Below the pieces are notes generated by a model. That model worked only from the letters and a program-made list of their open reading frames with translations. It did not search any database and was not told the DNA's origin. From Xylona heveae TC161 (Eukaryota; Ascomycota; Xylonomycetes; Xylonales; Xylonaceae): DNA of 64,000 nucleotides. The stretch is from NCBI RefSeq assembly GCF_001619985.1, contig NW_017264193.1, forward strand, positions 1,927,726 through 1,991,725. The letters are read 5' to 3'. This document shows positions 6,111 through 44,775 of this stretch, piece by piece (position 1 is the first letter of the stretch; each line of letters opens with the position of its first letter). The translations under genes were made by a program, and so were the position numbers.

Positions 6111-6116
6111 TTCGCC

Positions 6117-6211
6117 GTCGCGAAGAGGATTCGAACCTCTGCGGCCGAAGCCATATGATCTCGTACTAAGCCGATTCTAGTCATACCCAATAACCACTCT
6201 GGCATCGCGAC
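6117..6211 (-). tRNA. tRNA-Ser(AGA) with 15-nt intron
   Basis: Class II tRNA gene of 95 nt, 80 nt after splicing. The 7-bp acceptor stem pairs GTCGCGA with TCGCGAC. The anticodon stem TATGA/TCATA encloses a loop with anticodon AGA (plus-strand 6176-6178). A GGC-TTCG-GCC long variable arm identifies a serine tRNA, and the B box GGTTCGAATCC is perfect. The intron is 6160-6174, placed directly 3' of base 37, as in all eukaryotic nuclear tRNA introns. Apart from the intron it is identical to the gene at 6298-6377. Confidence 0.95.
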
Positions 6212-6282: not shown

Positions 6283-6297
6283 GGCGAATTAACAAAC

Positions 6298-6377
6298 GTC
6301 GCGAAGAGGATTCGAACCTCTGCGGCCGAAGCCATATGATTTCTAGTCATACCCAATAACCACTCTGGCATCGCGAC
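6298..6377 (-). tRNA. tRNA-Ser(AGA), intronless copy
   Basis: An 80-nt class II tRNA with the same mature sequence as the gene 86 bp away at 6117-6211. It lacks exactly the 15 intron bases: the anticodon loop CTAGAAA is uninterrupted. Acceptor stem, long variable arm and B box are intact, so it should be functional. The flanks of the two copies show no obvious similarity beyond the tRNA itself. Confidence 0.95.
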
Positions 6378-22135: not shown

Positions 22136-23967
22136 ATTGCCCTTGTCCGCGTATAGGAGTACATTGGAGAAAGGGGGACCAGACGTCATGACTATAAGGT
22201 TTTGAGTTAATGACCATACTTACGAGGCCGCAGGCGGATTCCTCCTTTATATTGTATCGCTGAATCAAGAATGCTTTTTTATGTCCATTCAATCGTTGCT
22301 TTTAGAGATTATTACATGCCATATGTTCGGATAGTTTGCAAATTAAATAAATTGTCCGATCCGCATATCGCCCGTACTCGGTAAACGTTGGCAGTTCCTA
22401 CTTTTATTATTTATTGCCATTATGATATTATAAGTGTATTTATACTTGGTAGGCGGGTGTTTGATTAACCTGCATAATTCCGTAGTCCTAAGCCCGCCCC
22501 TATCTCTTCCTGCCAGATCGTCTCACCAAGGCGGCCTGTCCTTCACGTACCTCATTTAGGATCGACATTTACGCGCATACTCCCCTATCACTCCAGTAGA
22601 ATTCACACCATATAATTACCCAGGCCTCGAAAATATTATAGTTTCAATCCCTGTATTAACTATCCAAAGCCTAAAAAAGGAGCGAAAGCCTTAAGTGTAC
22701 CAAGTATGACACATACCAAGTACGCATTGGGCGAGAGGGGCCTTAATCTAACTAATACTAAGGATTGAAGACAAATGTGATAGAACGATAATGAGTATCG
22801 ATCTCTATATAAGCACCGCAAAATTTGAGAGGGAAAAAATAAATAAATAAATGGGAGGCAAGGGAGGGAAGACCAGCGAATACGAAAAAGAAATAAGAGA
22901 CCGATTGGATCCGGATTCCAAGTCGATTTCTGCATTGTCTTTCGAATTCGACGCTTCGACGCTTCGACACTCCGCCTTGTAAAGTTCCTTCAAGCTTGGG
23001 TTTCTTATCTGTTAGACACGGAGTTGGTGCTGCTGCATTCTTTCATTGAAGAAAAAAGACGAACTGTCCCTTGAGAAAAAAAGACGAGCAGTCCCTTGGC
23101 TTAGAGAAAATAGACGAGCTTCGATTCAAAGAAAAAGAAAAAGACAGGAGATCAACAACATGTCTGAACAGAAAGATAACAAAAGCGAAGGAACAGACAG
23201 GGAGAAAAGAACAAATTCTCCTGTCGAGAAAAGAATAAGATAGGTTTGAGAGGAGAAAATAAACAAAGTTGAAACTACCAATGCGTCATCCCGCGAGGAG
23301 ACTCAGCACAAGTGGTAAAAGGAACAACCAGAGTAACCACACCAAAAGATATAGCGATTGAGAAAAGAGGGTGGAAGAAAGAGAGATTAGAAAAAAAAAA
23401 AAACTTCAATTTCGAAACACCCGTTTCCCCGAAAAAGTGTCCACGTGCAGTCTGTGCCTGGAACGAATTTCCGCGTGATAAAGTAATGCCTGAAAACTTG
23501 ATAGACTGAATGAAATCCTTTCCTCTTCCCTAGGCTACGTATGTGCGTACTGTACGTCTTTCTTGTTCCGCTTAAACGCCGTATCAAGGATAGTAGAGAG
23601 CCAATAAATAGTCCGATATTTTTTTAGGGAAAGTATAAGACAATGCAGCTTCGAAAGTCCAGAAGAATCAAAGGCTTGATTAAGTGATGATGTGTTTGCC
23701 GTTGCCGGTAGTATGTCCCGATTAAGGCAGTCCATTATCACTGGCCGTCGAATGGTTAGAAGTCGAGCTGAAAATATGTCGATGATAAGAACACCTTTTT
23801 TCGGGTATGGAAAATATATTGGATAGAAACCCAATGGCGTTGAGCTGAGGAAGAAAAGCCGGACAGGAACGCAGATGCGAGACTGGAGGTAGAGAAGAAA
23901 CCATAACGACAGGACGAAAACGAGAAAACTGTGGCACAGCACTGCGGGACGACGTCGCTATACTACT
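22136..23967. other. Gene-poor stretch downstream of the YBP1-like gene
   Basis: About 1.8 kb with no supported gene. From about 22830 to 23420 it is purine-rich on the plus strand, with imperfect repeats of a phrase like AAAGACGAGCAGTCCCTTG (about 23047-23120). The right part may be the 3' UTR of the minus-strand CaaX peptide gene. Confidence 0.45.
23047..23120. repeat. Imperfect purine-rich tandem repeat
   Basis: Two and a half diverged units: AAAGACGAACTGTCCCTTG, AAAGACGAGCAGTCCCTTG and a shortened AATAGACGAGC. Too short and diverged to name. Confidence 0.45.
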
Positions 23968-24072
23968 TTACATAATGGTGCAGTAGAGGCCGGCCTGGGA
24001 GTTGTCCTTGGGAGCACCAACCTCCTCGGAGGTGGCCTGAGTCTTGATAATCTTGACGGGAGCGGGAGACAT
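23968..24072 (-). CDS. 34-aa CaaX-box peptide, candidate a-factor-like lipopeptide pheromone precursor
   Basis: A tiny gene of 34 codons (ATG at 24072-24070, TAA at 23968) ending SQAGLYCTIM, a C-terminal CaaX box (Cys31). CaaX peptides of 20-40 aa in Ascomycota are typically a-factor-type mating pheromones, farnesylated and carboxymethylated at this Cys; known ones end in GYCVVM-like tails. Codons are strikingly biased to the highly expressed set (GTC, AAG, ATC, ACC, GAG, AAC, CTC, TAC), unlike chance ORFs. A clean 5' UTR intron (24200-24110, GTGCGT to CTACAG) and a TATA box sit upstream, and the start context CCAAAAATGTC is good. Gene status is well supported; the pheromone role is inference from length, CaaX and strong-expression signs. 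Another prenylated micro-peptide is the alternative. Confidence 0.72.
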   Translation of the reverse strand: MSPAPVKIIKTQATSEEVGAPKDNSQAGLYCTIM

Positions 24073-24109
24073 TTTTGGAGATTTTGTTTTTTGGACTTGA
24101 AAAGTCGTG

Positions 24110-24200
24110 CTGTAGAGAGTATATGTTAGTCTAGAGTTCTTATAATAATATAGAGTGCAAGACAGGAGGGGAAGAAGTGAGTATAGCAAGTAAGACGCAC
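24110..24200 (-). other. 5' UTR intron of the CaaX peptide gene
   Basis: 91-nt intron on the minus strand: donor GTGCGT, branch-like GACTAAC, acceptor CTCTACAG, ending 37 nt before the start codon. Confidence 0.7.
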
Positions 24201-24284
24201 CGTTAAAGCGAGTGTGATAGAAATGAAAGTAAGAAAGTGTGTTGGATCTGAGGAGGAAAGGTAGACAGGAAGGGAGGAAGGCGG

Positions 24285-24292
24285 TTTATATC
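24285..24292 (-). promoter_or_regulatory. TATA box of the CaaX peptide gene
   Basis: GATATAAA on the minus strand followed by a long pyrimidine-rich stretch (CTTCCTCCCTTCCTG type), the usual core promoter layout of strongly expressed fungal genes. The transcription start is probably near 24240-24260. Confidence 0.55.
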
Positions 24293-24511
24293 TTCGTGGA
24301 AGACAGGATGAAAAGCATATAGCTAGATGATAATAGAAAAAGGAGGATAATAGTAATTGCAGAAACGGTCTAGACGTCCATGGATCAGACAGACTAAAGC
24401 CGGATAAAGGATTACAGGTAGGAGAAGAAAGAAAATAATTGCTTCCAAAGGGGACCTAAACGAGGACAATAAGGATTTGGAGAGAAGATAATAACAGAGA
24501 ATAATACTTAC

Positions 24512-24558
24512 GAGAGGTTGACGGCCCTCCAGCCGTCAACACTAGAGGTGTACCAGTT
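24512..24558 (-). other. Orphan exon-like segment containing a perfect 9-bp hairpin
   Basis: 47 nt on the minus strand, bounded by a good acceptor (GACTAACATACGGGCAG, ending at 24559) and a consensus donor (GTAAGT, 24511). Inside lies the inverted repeat GTTGACGGC-(6 nt)-GCCGTCAAC at 24517-24540. A second TATA-like GTATAAAGG sits upstream on the same strand near 24810. It could be an alternative 5' exon of the CaaX gene or part of a non-coding RNA. Confidence 0.35.
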
Positions 24559-24819
24559 CTGCCCGTATGTTAGTCTCAACTTGGAAAGCGCCCTATGGTG
24601 TTAGTATTGTTCCGCTTGATATTGTTGTTGAGTAGTGTCGAGAAAACTCTTTGAAGTAGCAGCTGTGGATAAGCTCAAACCGAGACTGATGGAAATAACA
24701 GCAATTTAGTGGTCAGATTTGGCTAATATGACTGTAAATGTATAATTTGGAGAAAGAAAGAAGAAAAAAAGGGGAAAGGAGATCGAGTCTCTTAAGCCAC
24801 GCCTTTATACTCCACACCC

Positions 24820-25611
24820 AGATGTGATGAAAGTGTGAATCTCGCAGAAAGTAGACTCATAAAATTTGTAAAGATCAATATACGTCTTTACAATTTGCTT
24901 CACAAATACTTTGCAGCATACGCGAAATACTCGAAAGTACGTTGAATACCTTCAATGACAGAATTTTCAGCCTTGGACACCATAATCATTCACTAAAGGA
25001 GTGAGTGCAAGAGTGAGTGCAACACACTCGACTGTATTGCTTTGGAAAGCTTGCAAATAGAAACACGATTCATGACAAGATAAAAGACAGACATAAACAA
25101 TATCAGGCTTGAGAAACAGACAAGGAAGATGACGGAGCTATGGGTTCGACCGGATTCGCAGAACAATCGTGATGGCGTGGCGTATGCCCTAAATATGGCA
25201 CACCTGTGCTCAAAGGCATGGCGAACACTTCAAATGCGAACTTGAAACGGCATTTGAAAAGAGATTTCAAAGAAGAGCTTTTGGGTCAAAACAAATTGAC
25301 CCGGCGTATCAGCGCCGTAGTGCGAGCTGGGAGGAACGAGCGACCAAAACAGCCCAGCGATGGGCCAACAGGCTCTTCCAGGCACGCCGAGGAGTAAATG
25401 GTGAGTAGCGGATTAATCAATATCCTGTCTCTTCAGGGGAACAATATCAAGCGATTTTTGATAAAATCATTGACGTTGGAAGAGAATGATTTCGCTCTCA
25501 AAGACGTCGTTAATATTGTTCCTGGTTTGAAAGGGTTCGGCGTAGGCGCTAGTCCATAACTGGCTCCCGGTAGTAAATAGGTAAAACCTCGGCTGGGGCT
25601 ACGCATGGCAT
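24820..25611. other. Stretch without a supported gene left of the transposase stump
   Basis: Sequence between the CaaX-gene upstream region and the transposase relic. No motif was recognised in its short open frames, although part of it may be decayed transposon DNA. Confidence 0.35.
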
Positions 25612-26025
25612 TATTCACCCCCGATGACGTATTTTCCGAAAATCATTCTTCTTGAGCTCTCGTTCAAGGGTCTTTTTCGAAATTTCCGCAGCGCAGTTTG
25701 TCTGCAGCTCCCGGAGCTTTATACAAGGATTTTTAGAAATTTCTCGGAGAATCTGTCTGGACGTGCGATCAGAAATCTTTTTAGGCCGTCCTGGGCGAGG
25801 AAGGGACGCGCAATTTTCGCGCTTTTTGTCTTTTGCAATCGTTGATTTGACGGTGCTAAATGATAGATTGAAAATTGTTGCAATTTCTTTATAGCTTTTG
25901 CCAGACTTTCTAGCACCGATTATCTCTGCCCGCTGAATCGGCGACAGCTCAGCGCCGCGTTTTCGTGGTTCAATGGATGGAGGCATTTTGTTGTTATTGT
26001 TGATGTTACGACGTGACTCTCGCAA
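25612..26025 (-). mobile_element. Truncated Tc1/mariner-type transposase (DNA-binding part only)
   Basis: An open frame on the minus strand encodes the tandem helix-turn-helix half of a Tc1/mariner (Tc3/impala-like) transposase: ELSPIQRAEIIGARKSGKSY, then IATIFNLSFSTVKSTI, the linker PRPGRPKKISDRTSRQILRE and a second HTH ending ISKKTLERELKKNDFRKIRHRG. A stop follows at once, and none of the DDE/DDD catalytic domain is present downstream. Terminal inverted repeats and TA target duplication were not recognised. It is a relic of a plain DNA transposon. A second possibility is a captured, repurposed HTH protein of about 124-136 aa, since the frame itself is undamaged. Confidence 0.75.
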
Positions 26026-26501
26026 AATTGACTCCTTATTTCTTCCCCCCTTTCCCCCCCGAAGCTAGCGAGCCCTCCAGCACCTACAGTGGCAAGATGC
26101 TCTGAGCTGGCTCTTATTCTAATGTATGCGGGTTGATTTCGACCTCCTCTCTTCTCAATGGCAAGCCGACATGCTGTGCGGAAAAGTACCTTGTCCAATA
26201 AATTTGTGCACATCTTGGCTGTCAATTGAAGTCTATGAAATCAGAAAAGACGTATAAGCCTCAAATTGCTTGCTTTAATTCAGCTAAATTACGTTTGATT
26301 ACGGAGCTTACTAGGAGAGGTTCCAGTTCATCTCCACACCCGTATCACTCGTAAATCAAGGAAATTCCTTCAGCAACGAAGCTTCCAAGCCAATAAATTG
26401 CAGAAATCCTAACGTTATGAATTAAGCTATGCATCGCTATGCTAATATCTGTTATGTTCCACAAAGGAAAATCCATGTCGTCATGATGCTAAGACTTATT
26501 T

Positions 26502-42900: not shown

Positions 42901-44775
42901 TTAAGAAGCAATGGCGCGTGCGCCCTGGTTGCCGCCGCGACGGTTGTTGCGGGCCTTGGATACGGTACTCCATCCATCTTCTTCGAGGCTCTCTGCGGTC
43001 GGCTCAGACGTCCGCCTCCAGGTACCCTCCTGCGGGGTCTCCTGGGGCTTGACGGCCTTGTCATCAACAATGGCACCATTCTGGGTCTCAGATCCCTCTT
43101 GGGCAGGGGCGTTTGCTTCCTCCTTAGACAAAGCCTTGAAAGTGTTTCCGGGTTGAGGTTTCTCAGCTTCGTCCTGGCCAGCGGCGGCGGCAGCGGCTTT
43201 CTCGGCCTTGGCCGCCTCCTTGGCTTGTCTCTTCTCTTCACGCGCCTTTTCATCTTGCTCCTTCTTTTGACGCTGAGCCTGCAATCTCTTCTCTTCAATT
43301 TCTCTCTCCTTGGCAAAGGTGTTAATGGGACGAGCGGCACCAAAAGGACTAGCCTTCGAGTCCGAAGAAGCGGTAGAGGGTGCCGCGGGTTCGGCTTCGG
43401 AAACTGTCCGCTTCTGAAGTTGAAGCTTCGGCCGGACAGCGGGAGCGACAGGCGAAGTAGGCGTGCTAGCCTCCTTACTGGCCTCCTTAGGAGGGGTGGG
43501 AGCGCTCACAGGAGCGTCAGGTCGCATTCTGGCGCGCCAGGCATTGTCCAGCTCTGGGGCGGTGGGTGCACGATCAGCAGCTCGTTCTTCATATTCCTTT
43601 CTCGGCGGCCGCGATCCCTCTTGGGAGCGGCCCTCACCCCAAGATGGGGACTCTCTGCGGTCTCGCGGCGCTTCCTTCGTTGGGGCAGTGGGCAACACGG
43701 GAGCTGGTGGGCCCTTGCGCTCCCAGTTTCCAAAGTCGCGAACCTTTCCATCTCCAGCCTCAAAAGGCCGACGACGATCTCCAGCCTCGAAACCACTGAA
43801 TCCTCCACGATCGGAACCACGTCGGGGAATTTCAGGAAGAGGGCCCTTGCGAGTCCAGTCGTTCAGCTCACGGGCATCAGGACGATCTTTGGCTGTAAAC
43901 AGGAGTATATTAGTCATCTTTTTCTGCGCGAAGGCGGCTGGTCAGAAATAATTCAAGGGTAGCTTACGAGGCTCGGCAACGCTAATTCTAATTGTTCGAC
44001 CCTGGAATTGAGTGTTGTTCAAGTCCAATGCTTTCTTGAGTCCATCCAGAGTACCAAATTCGACGTAGCCAAATCCTTTTGGACGTCTCTCAATTTTGTC
44101 CTCGACAATTCGAACGTTGGTGACGGCACAGTCCATGAAGAAATCGGTGATATCACCCTCGGTGGCGTCGAAGGAAAGATTGCCAATGTGGGCGGTAAAC
44201 GGGGGCTTATCAGGGAGAGGGAGCTGTTCTCGAGGAAGGAATCCTCCACGGTCTTCATGGAAACTTAGCTCTCAACATTGCAAGAGGCACGTGAGCCCAA
44301 CAGGCATATGAACTCACCACTGAAGCCGGCTCCGAAACCAGTAGAAGCGCCAAAACCACGTCGCTCAGATCCGTAACTGGGGGCAGGGGCTGGTGTTGTC
44401 AATGAGATGAAACGCTATGTACATAAATTACTCGTTGAGGTACAAACCAGCTGTCGCATTTGAAGATTAGCATTTGTGCTTGACAGTCGTCGGATCGCGT
44501 ATTACACATACCAGGAAGAGGCATATCCTCCATCTCGTCCGCCCAAGAGCCAAGAGCTAAGCAGAGTTAGCCATCATCTCCCCTCTGAAACATGTGCTTC
44601 CCCGAGCCATACACTCATCGTTCAAAAAGTCCCCGAGGGACATCTTCTGATTCTTCGACTTCGCAGGAGCTATAGAACAGAATGTTAGCATCACTCAACA
44701 GCATGCAACACCACCAGCGTTTATCCGAAGAGGAGAAGATCAGCCTCGTGTCCCGCACACTCATGACTTACCCAT
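42901..44775 (-). CDS. TIF3: Translation initiation factor eIF4B
   Basis: Exons (minus) 44775-44772, 44669-44613, 44556-44512, 44389-44314, 44263-43968 and 43892-42901, 489 aa. It stimulates eIF4A helicase and mRNA recruitment in the cytosol. A short N-terminus (SLGDFLNDESLGSWADEMED) precedes one RRM with RNP2 AHIGNLSF and RNP1 KGFGYVEF, then Arg/Gly/Asp-rich repeats (ELNDWTRKGPLPEIPRRGSD, FGNWERKGPP), a Lys/Glu/Ala helix and the conserved tail EEDGWSTVSKARNNRRGGNQ. The first coding exon is only ATGG. The exon 4/5 junction (donor at 44313) is the least certain. Divergent from the gene at 45243. Confidence 0.93.

Follow-up and report, generated by a model that had tools for sequence, protein, structure and literature searches.

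A candidate a-factor-type pheromone precursor gene in the rubber-tree endophyte Xylona heveae

According to PMC10569646, published in 2023, the Sordariomycetes had been the only filamentous ascomycetes with a known a-factor, and this source adds one putative family from the Leotiomycetes, whose role in mating its authors doubt. The Leotiomycete candidates, which come from no fewer than 111 species, are 45-64 aa long and end mostly in CTVM, and also in CVVM, CIVM, CTIL, CSIM or CSVM; 87 of them carry a GY motif. GYC is presented there as usual in both Leotiomycetes and Sordariomycetes, a Ser/Thr-rich N-terminus is likewise a usual trait, and genes of this size are said to be seldom annotated. 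The same account gives no mating-type-limited expression of the Leotiomycete peptide in the three species checked, with strong expression in Botrytis, none detectable in Monilinia fructicola and an RPKM of 19.58 in MAT1-1 Amorphotheca. The a-factor C-terminal region is described in PMC3068285 as XYCY/IVM, together with a farnesylation rule for Met, while CTLM and CVIA boxes are reported to be fully farnesylated on a yeast reporter (PMC5014548). CT.M boxes also occur in proteins other than pheromones, as in the yeast G-gamma subunit Ste18, which ends in CTLM (PMC5014548). Pheromone genes may rank among the most transcribed ones (PMC3125171). Repeated a-factors and criteria for finding them have been described (PMC10182648, PMC13037118), including a hydrophobic N-terminus for the Ceratocystidaceae (PMC13037118). 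Xylona heveae, a rubber-tree endophyte, belongs to the class Xylonomycetes, on which background is available (PMC7563122, PMC7882544), and its reproductive mode is treated as still to be studied in PMC6339444. Among the open-licence papers listed, judged by title and start of the abstract, we found no a-factor for Xylonomycetes, Eurotiomycetes, Dothideomycetes or Lecanoromycetes, and the string YCTIM combined with "pheromone" retrieved, by title, animal papers only.

The first-pass annotation of a 64-kb stretch of the X. heveae TC161 genome (the whole stretch analysed, hereafter the window) had singled out a 34-codon frame ending in YCTIM. This frame is indeed present on the minus strand, at 24072..23968, and terminates in GLYCTIM-TAA. 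The features of the locus are the following:

24072..23968, minus strand: 34-codon coding sequence, MSPAPVKIIKTQATSEEVGAPKDNSQAGLYCTIM followed by TAA, delimited by the open frame, the codon adaptation index (CAI) and a codon bias confined to ATG..TAA
23968..23982, minus strand: CTIM farnesylation (CaaX) box (TGC ACC ATT ATG) and TAA stop, read from the sequence; the genome contains 118 Cx[I/V]M-stop sites, this one included
23980..24000, minus strand: SQAGLYC codons, possible mature peptide SQAGLYC-farnesyl-OMe by analogy with the yeast a-factor cut
24290..24285, minus strand: TATAAA box, 213-218 nt upstream of the ATG
24073..24284, minus strand: predicted leader without ATG, 66% pyrimidine with the TATA box counted in
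24200..24110, minus strand: 91-nt 5' UTR intron predicted by pattern, with donor GTGCGT, branch CTAAC and acceptor CTACAG
24517..24540: perfect 9-bp inverted repeat GTTGACGGC/GCCGTCAAC, its arms 6 nt apart, located some 0.45 kb upstream of the ATG

With its 34 aa, the product falls within the size of precursors below 100 aa, and it carries a single C-terminal CaaX box with a Tyr preceding the Cys. This Cys31 is its only one, and the three CpaX copies expected of an h-type precursor are absent. Near the C-terminus the peptide reads AGLYCTIM, that is GLYC and not GYC, and its first 26 residues contain five Ser/Thr, so that the Ser/Thr-rich N-terminus, a usual but not defining trait, is lacking. 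The mean Kyte-Doolittle value is 0.51 for residues 1-10 and -1.27 for residues 11-24, and inspection by eye revealed no long hydrophobic stretch. No second genomic copy of the peptide and no Pfam or NCBIfam domain within it were detected at E<=10; a PDB match at E=1 was treated as chance. In the window, this is the sole CxxM-ending ATG frame of 15-100 aa, and a wider CaaX pattern gives three frames including it, the other two having a CAI of 0.17.

Codon choice was assessed with CAI weights derived from the X. heveae exons of EF1a (369 codons) and EF2 (487 codons), both located by a PF00009 search and identified from their translations. The peptide frame has a CAI of 0.885, next to 0.852 for EF1a and 0.762 for EF2, two values that are flattered, as these genes form the training set, and 0.18-0.20 for four ordinary frames of the window. 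Of all 678 ATG frames between 15 and 100 aa long in the window, it scores highest, with 0.571 for the runner-up, a rank that bears out the codon usage of the highly expressed type noticed at first reading. Indeed, it lies 9.6 SD above the mean of the 364 frames of 25-60 aa, itself included, and none of 100,000 synonymous versions randomised according to ordinary usage reached 0.885. Measured in 12-codon steps, the index is 0.06 directly before the ATG (0.06-0.30 over the upstream region), 0.84-0.93 within the frame (0.87 for the first 12 codons) and 0.12-0.35 past the stop. Since the bias is confined to the frame, rising at the ATG and falling off at the stop, codon choice indicates that this is almost certainly a real, strongly translated gene, with a correctly placed start and stop.

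The surroundings of the frame fit this picture. The TATA box, the pyrimidine-rich region and the 5' UTR intron with its splice signals, all proposed by the first-pass annotation, were recovered at the positions listed above, the intron as a prediction from sequence. A transcript start near 24260 is likewise predicted. Its strict pattern occurs only twice in 64 kb (24200..24110 and 44771..44670), and a laxer pattern 39 times. The ATG of the peptide is the first one past the TATA box and lies in an A-rich start context, the closest upstream ATG being 246 nt away. The TATAAA box, the ATG-free leader and the GT..CTAAC..AG intron are thus consistent with a promoter and a 5' UTR. TGAAAC and ACAAAG motifs are absent from the 1.48 kb scanned upstream of the TATA box, which contains one GTTTCA at 25248. 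The inverted repeat at 24517-24540 could be a promoter or control element, or mark the end of an upstream exon; it adjoins a GTAAGT that resembles a splice donor, at 24511 on the minus strand. Among the loci examined, its half-site was found elsewhere only in the STE3 coding region, from which no meaning was drawn. A second inverted repeat, with 12-nt arms that are 92% complementary and a 10-nt gap, lies at 24863-24896. As for the gene-poor stretch said to enclose the locus, the gap at 22136-26501 (4.37 kb) is real, but it holds a transposase fragment and other short frames. The neighbouring genes are a Ybp2-like gene to one side and a phospholipase D gene to the other. The transposase fragment, at 25615-25986 (minus strand), is an N-terminal piece of a Tc1/mariner-like transposase matching HTH_28, HTH_Tnp_Tc3_2 and HTH_SB, some of them below their cut-offs. 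Farther away in the window, Rfam, though not ARAGORN as run, detected a tRNA-Ser(AGA) at 6297-6377 and a second tRNA match at 6116-6211, both on the minus strand.

Small genes with a comparable C-terminus were sought throughout the genome, the scan covering unspliced Cx[I/V]M ends. Cys-x-[I/V]-Met-stop occurs at 79 + 39 = 118 sites including the peptide, and the reversed controls gave 57 + 25 = 82. Among the other 117 sites, there are 72 at which the first ATG is that of the motif itself, and 12 give frames shorter than 15 aa; 16 correspond to frames of 15-80 aa with an upstream stop and a CAI of 0.107-0.336, and 17 are open across all 80 codons fetched, with a CAI of 0.118-0.441. Internal starts within these 17 open stretches give at most 0.547 (23 codons, at L111). 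The stretches comprise L111, L165, L172 and 14 loci among L070-L186, and some of them are probably the ends of larger CaaX proteins, Ras-, Rho- or G-gamma-like. Tyr-Cys-x-[ILVF]-Met followed by TRR was found at six genomic sites (14 in the reversed control), four of which end in a stop, and among these four only the peptide gene has an ATG frame of at least 15 aa. One further candidate, SPSSSNSNGYCLFM-stop at C9:164433, was set aside because its frame, followed from the preceding stop up to the motif, lacks an ATG; a spliced gene was sought there by eye. Hence, the unspliced ends scanned in the genome include no other small Cx[I/V]M gene with a codon bias that could compete, and the peptide gene is the best a-factor candidate so far in X. 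heveae.

The genome was also searched for the remaining components of pheromone signalling. An STE3 receptor gene is present on contig C14; with its two exons joined, 78% of the query matches an X. heveae TC161 protein at 100%, and the species thus possesses the cognate receptor of an a-factor. Genes for the STE2 receptor and for ICMT were found as well. Two further loci deserve to be located:

G000:C10:1038500-1057500 (L014/L015): MAT1-2 idiomorph with SLA2, MAT1-2-1, APN2 and APC5, from domain searches
G000:C3:2267000-2270500 (L069), minus strand: 183-aa alpha-factor precursor carrying four tandem CHLPGQGC repeats, CAI 0.388

At the first one, an HMG-box gene (PF00505, L008) is flanked on one side by an ANTH / I_LWEQ gene and on the other by an Exo_endo_phos gene, which is followed by an ANAPC5 gene; from domains, HMG sequence and gene order, we take these to be MAT1-2-1, SLA2, APN2 and APC5. 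A 128-codon frame is also found in this region (L014:6768-7154, minus strand). The MATalpha box had no match in the genome in one profile search, whose control also matched nowhere; the STE3, STE2 and HMG searches of the same genome all gave matches. The sequenced strain TC161 is MAT1-2. In heterothallic Sordariomycetes, MAT1-2 is described as the type preferentially expressing the a-factor (PMC10569646), so TC161 would by that rule be of the a-factor-expressing type. The alpha-factor pattern gave 158 sites against 39 in the reversed control, and the four tandem sites of the precursor on C3 are among the matches listed. This precursor carries RFCHLPGQGCSK, the same motif as the one reported for X. 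heveae in PMC6339444. Its CAI is about twice that of ordinary genes and far below that of the peptide gene. MAT (C10) and STE3 (C14) are located on other contigs than the latter.

Protein relatives of the peptide were sought twice. A 41-aa query, composed of the 34 aa and seven translated leader residues, shared three words with no candidate, and an alignment of this 41-aa row with 41 seven-residue motif variants yielded three candidates, none at E<=10. The collection searched does include fungal proteins, as 75 STE3-family members were retrieved at E<=0.001.

Collectively, these data indicate that the gene probably encodes the precursor of a farnesylated a-factor-type pheromone of X. heveae, sensed by STE3; that the peptide is prenylated we regard as highly probable. 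The first-pass annotation had proposed such a precursor, and its parts fare differently. The existence of a highly expressed CaaX peptide gene is strongly supported by codon choice. The a-factor reading gains support from MAT1-2, STE3, STE2, ICMT, the alpha-factor gene and the absence of a rival small codon-biased gene among the unspliced Cx[I/V]M ends scanned, but the two protein searches gave no relative. In favour of a pheromone stand a single-copy, extremely codon-biased frame with a farnesylation box in a MAT1-2 strain, its small size with one C-terminal CaaX and a Tyr before the Cys, the likeness of its box to the farnesylated CTLM and to the Leotiomycete ends, and the occurrence of both receptors, the alpha-factor gene and ICMT in the same genome. 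Against it stand the GLYC instead of GYC, the few Ser/Thr, the lack of a protein relative, the lack of TGAAAC/ACAAAG, the CT.M end of a non-pheromone protein such as Ste18, and the location of MAT and STE3 on other contigs.

In yeast, the a-factor cut falls after KKDN. By analogy, the N-terminal part of the X. heveae peptide could be trimmed, perhaps after KDN, to give SQAGLYC-farnesyl-OMe. Cys31 would be farnesylated, TIM removed and the Cys carboxymethylated, and the peptide would be exported without a signal peptide and perceived by MAT1-1 cells via STE3.

Other explanations have to be weighed against this one. With 678 ATG frames between 15 and 100 aa long in the window, short frames are plentiful, and a chance open frame without product could be imagined; however, the distance of its CAI from the mean of the 364 frames and the failure of all 100,000 synonymous versions to reach it make this extremely improbable. 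The frame could also represent the terminal exon of a longer, Ras-like or G-gamma CaaX protein, as some of the 17 stretches open over at least 80 codons probably belong to real proteins of this kind. This seems highly improbable, since the bias begins at the ATG, no Pfam domain is matched, and the ATG is the first one after the TATA box, in an A-rich context.

The main rival is a constitutive prenylated micropeptide for which mating would be a secondary role or no role at all, for instance a vegetative signal or a membrane-anchored regulator. The codon bias of the gene matches or exceeds that of EF1a and is much stronger than in the alpha-factor gene. This would point to constitutive expression, in most cells over evolutionary time, and not to expression limited to mating. 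Such a bias would seem to exceed what is required of a gene that serves a single mating type during mating, and it is the strongest point against a pheromone. The Leotiomycete peptide, for which no mating-type-limited expression was seen in three species and whose mating role its authors doubt (PMC10569646), points in the same direction. On the other hand, the genome contains a pheromone set for which the scan of unspliced Cx[I/V]M ends brought up no other a-factor, and a-factor genes known elsewhere can likewise rank with the most transcribed ones (PMC3125171); overall, this alternative appears possible but rather unlikely. A still more tentative idea, which we consider doubtful, is that the X. 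heveae peptide and the Leotiomycete CTVM peptide form one ancient leotiomyceta family of farnesylated micropeptides, expressed at housekeeping level in both mating types. If so, the a-factor lineage outside the Sordariomycetes would have a vegetative signalling job besides, or instead of, mating.

The preferred reading, an a-factor-type precursor, would provide a candidate in a third class, beyond the Sordariomycetes and the putative Leotiomycete family of PMC10569646. Being single-copy, it supplies a concrete testable peptide, receptor and mating type. Furthermore, it suggests a homology-free search for small CxxM-ending frames in which codon bias sets in at the ATG and ceases with the stop codon.

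The X. heveae peptide resembles S. cerevisiae Mfa1/Mfa2 in length, in its charged N-terminal part, in its CaaX box and in the KDN preceding the mature part. Yeast a-factor ends in CVIA (PMC5014548), whereas the X. heveae peptide ends in CTIM. The Hypocreales h-type (PMC3068285) and the repeated a-factors of Huntiella (PMC10182648) are likewise small, with a polar residue after the Cys (CpaX), but are described with several motif repeats, in contrast to the one Cys found here. The one-CaaX precursors of Sordariomycetes, such as Neurospora mfa-1, Podospora MFP, Cryphonectria mf2-1 and Magnaporthe MF1-1, are also small, with one C-terminal CaaX and a Tyr before the Cys (PMC3068285); compared by description, X. 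heveae differs in its GLYCTIM end and belongs to another class. The a-factor genes of Podospora and Neurospora are reported to be strongly expressed (PMC3125171), as the codon bias suggests for X. heveae, though Podospora MFM and MFP are given there as intron-less and a 5' UTR intron is predicted here. Finally, by description, the Leotiomycete family of Botrytis BCIN_13g03330 differs in length, with 45-64 aa versus 34 aa, and in the GY of 87 members (PMC10569646). It is expressed in Botrytis, is unannotated in most genomes according to that source, and has the CT[V/I]M box in common with the X. heveae peptide.
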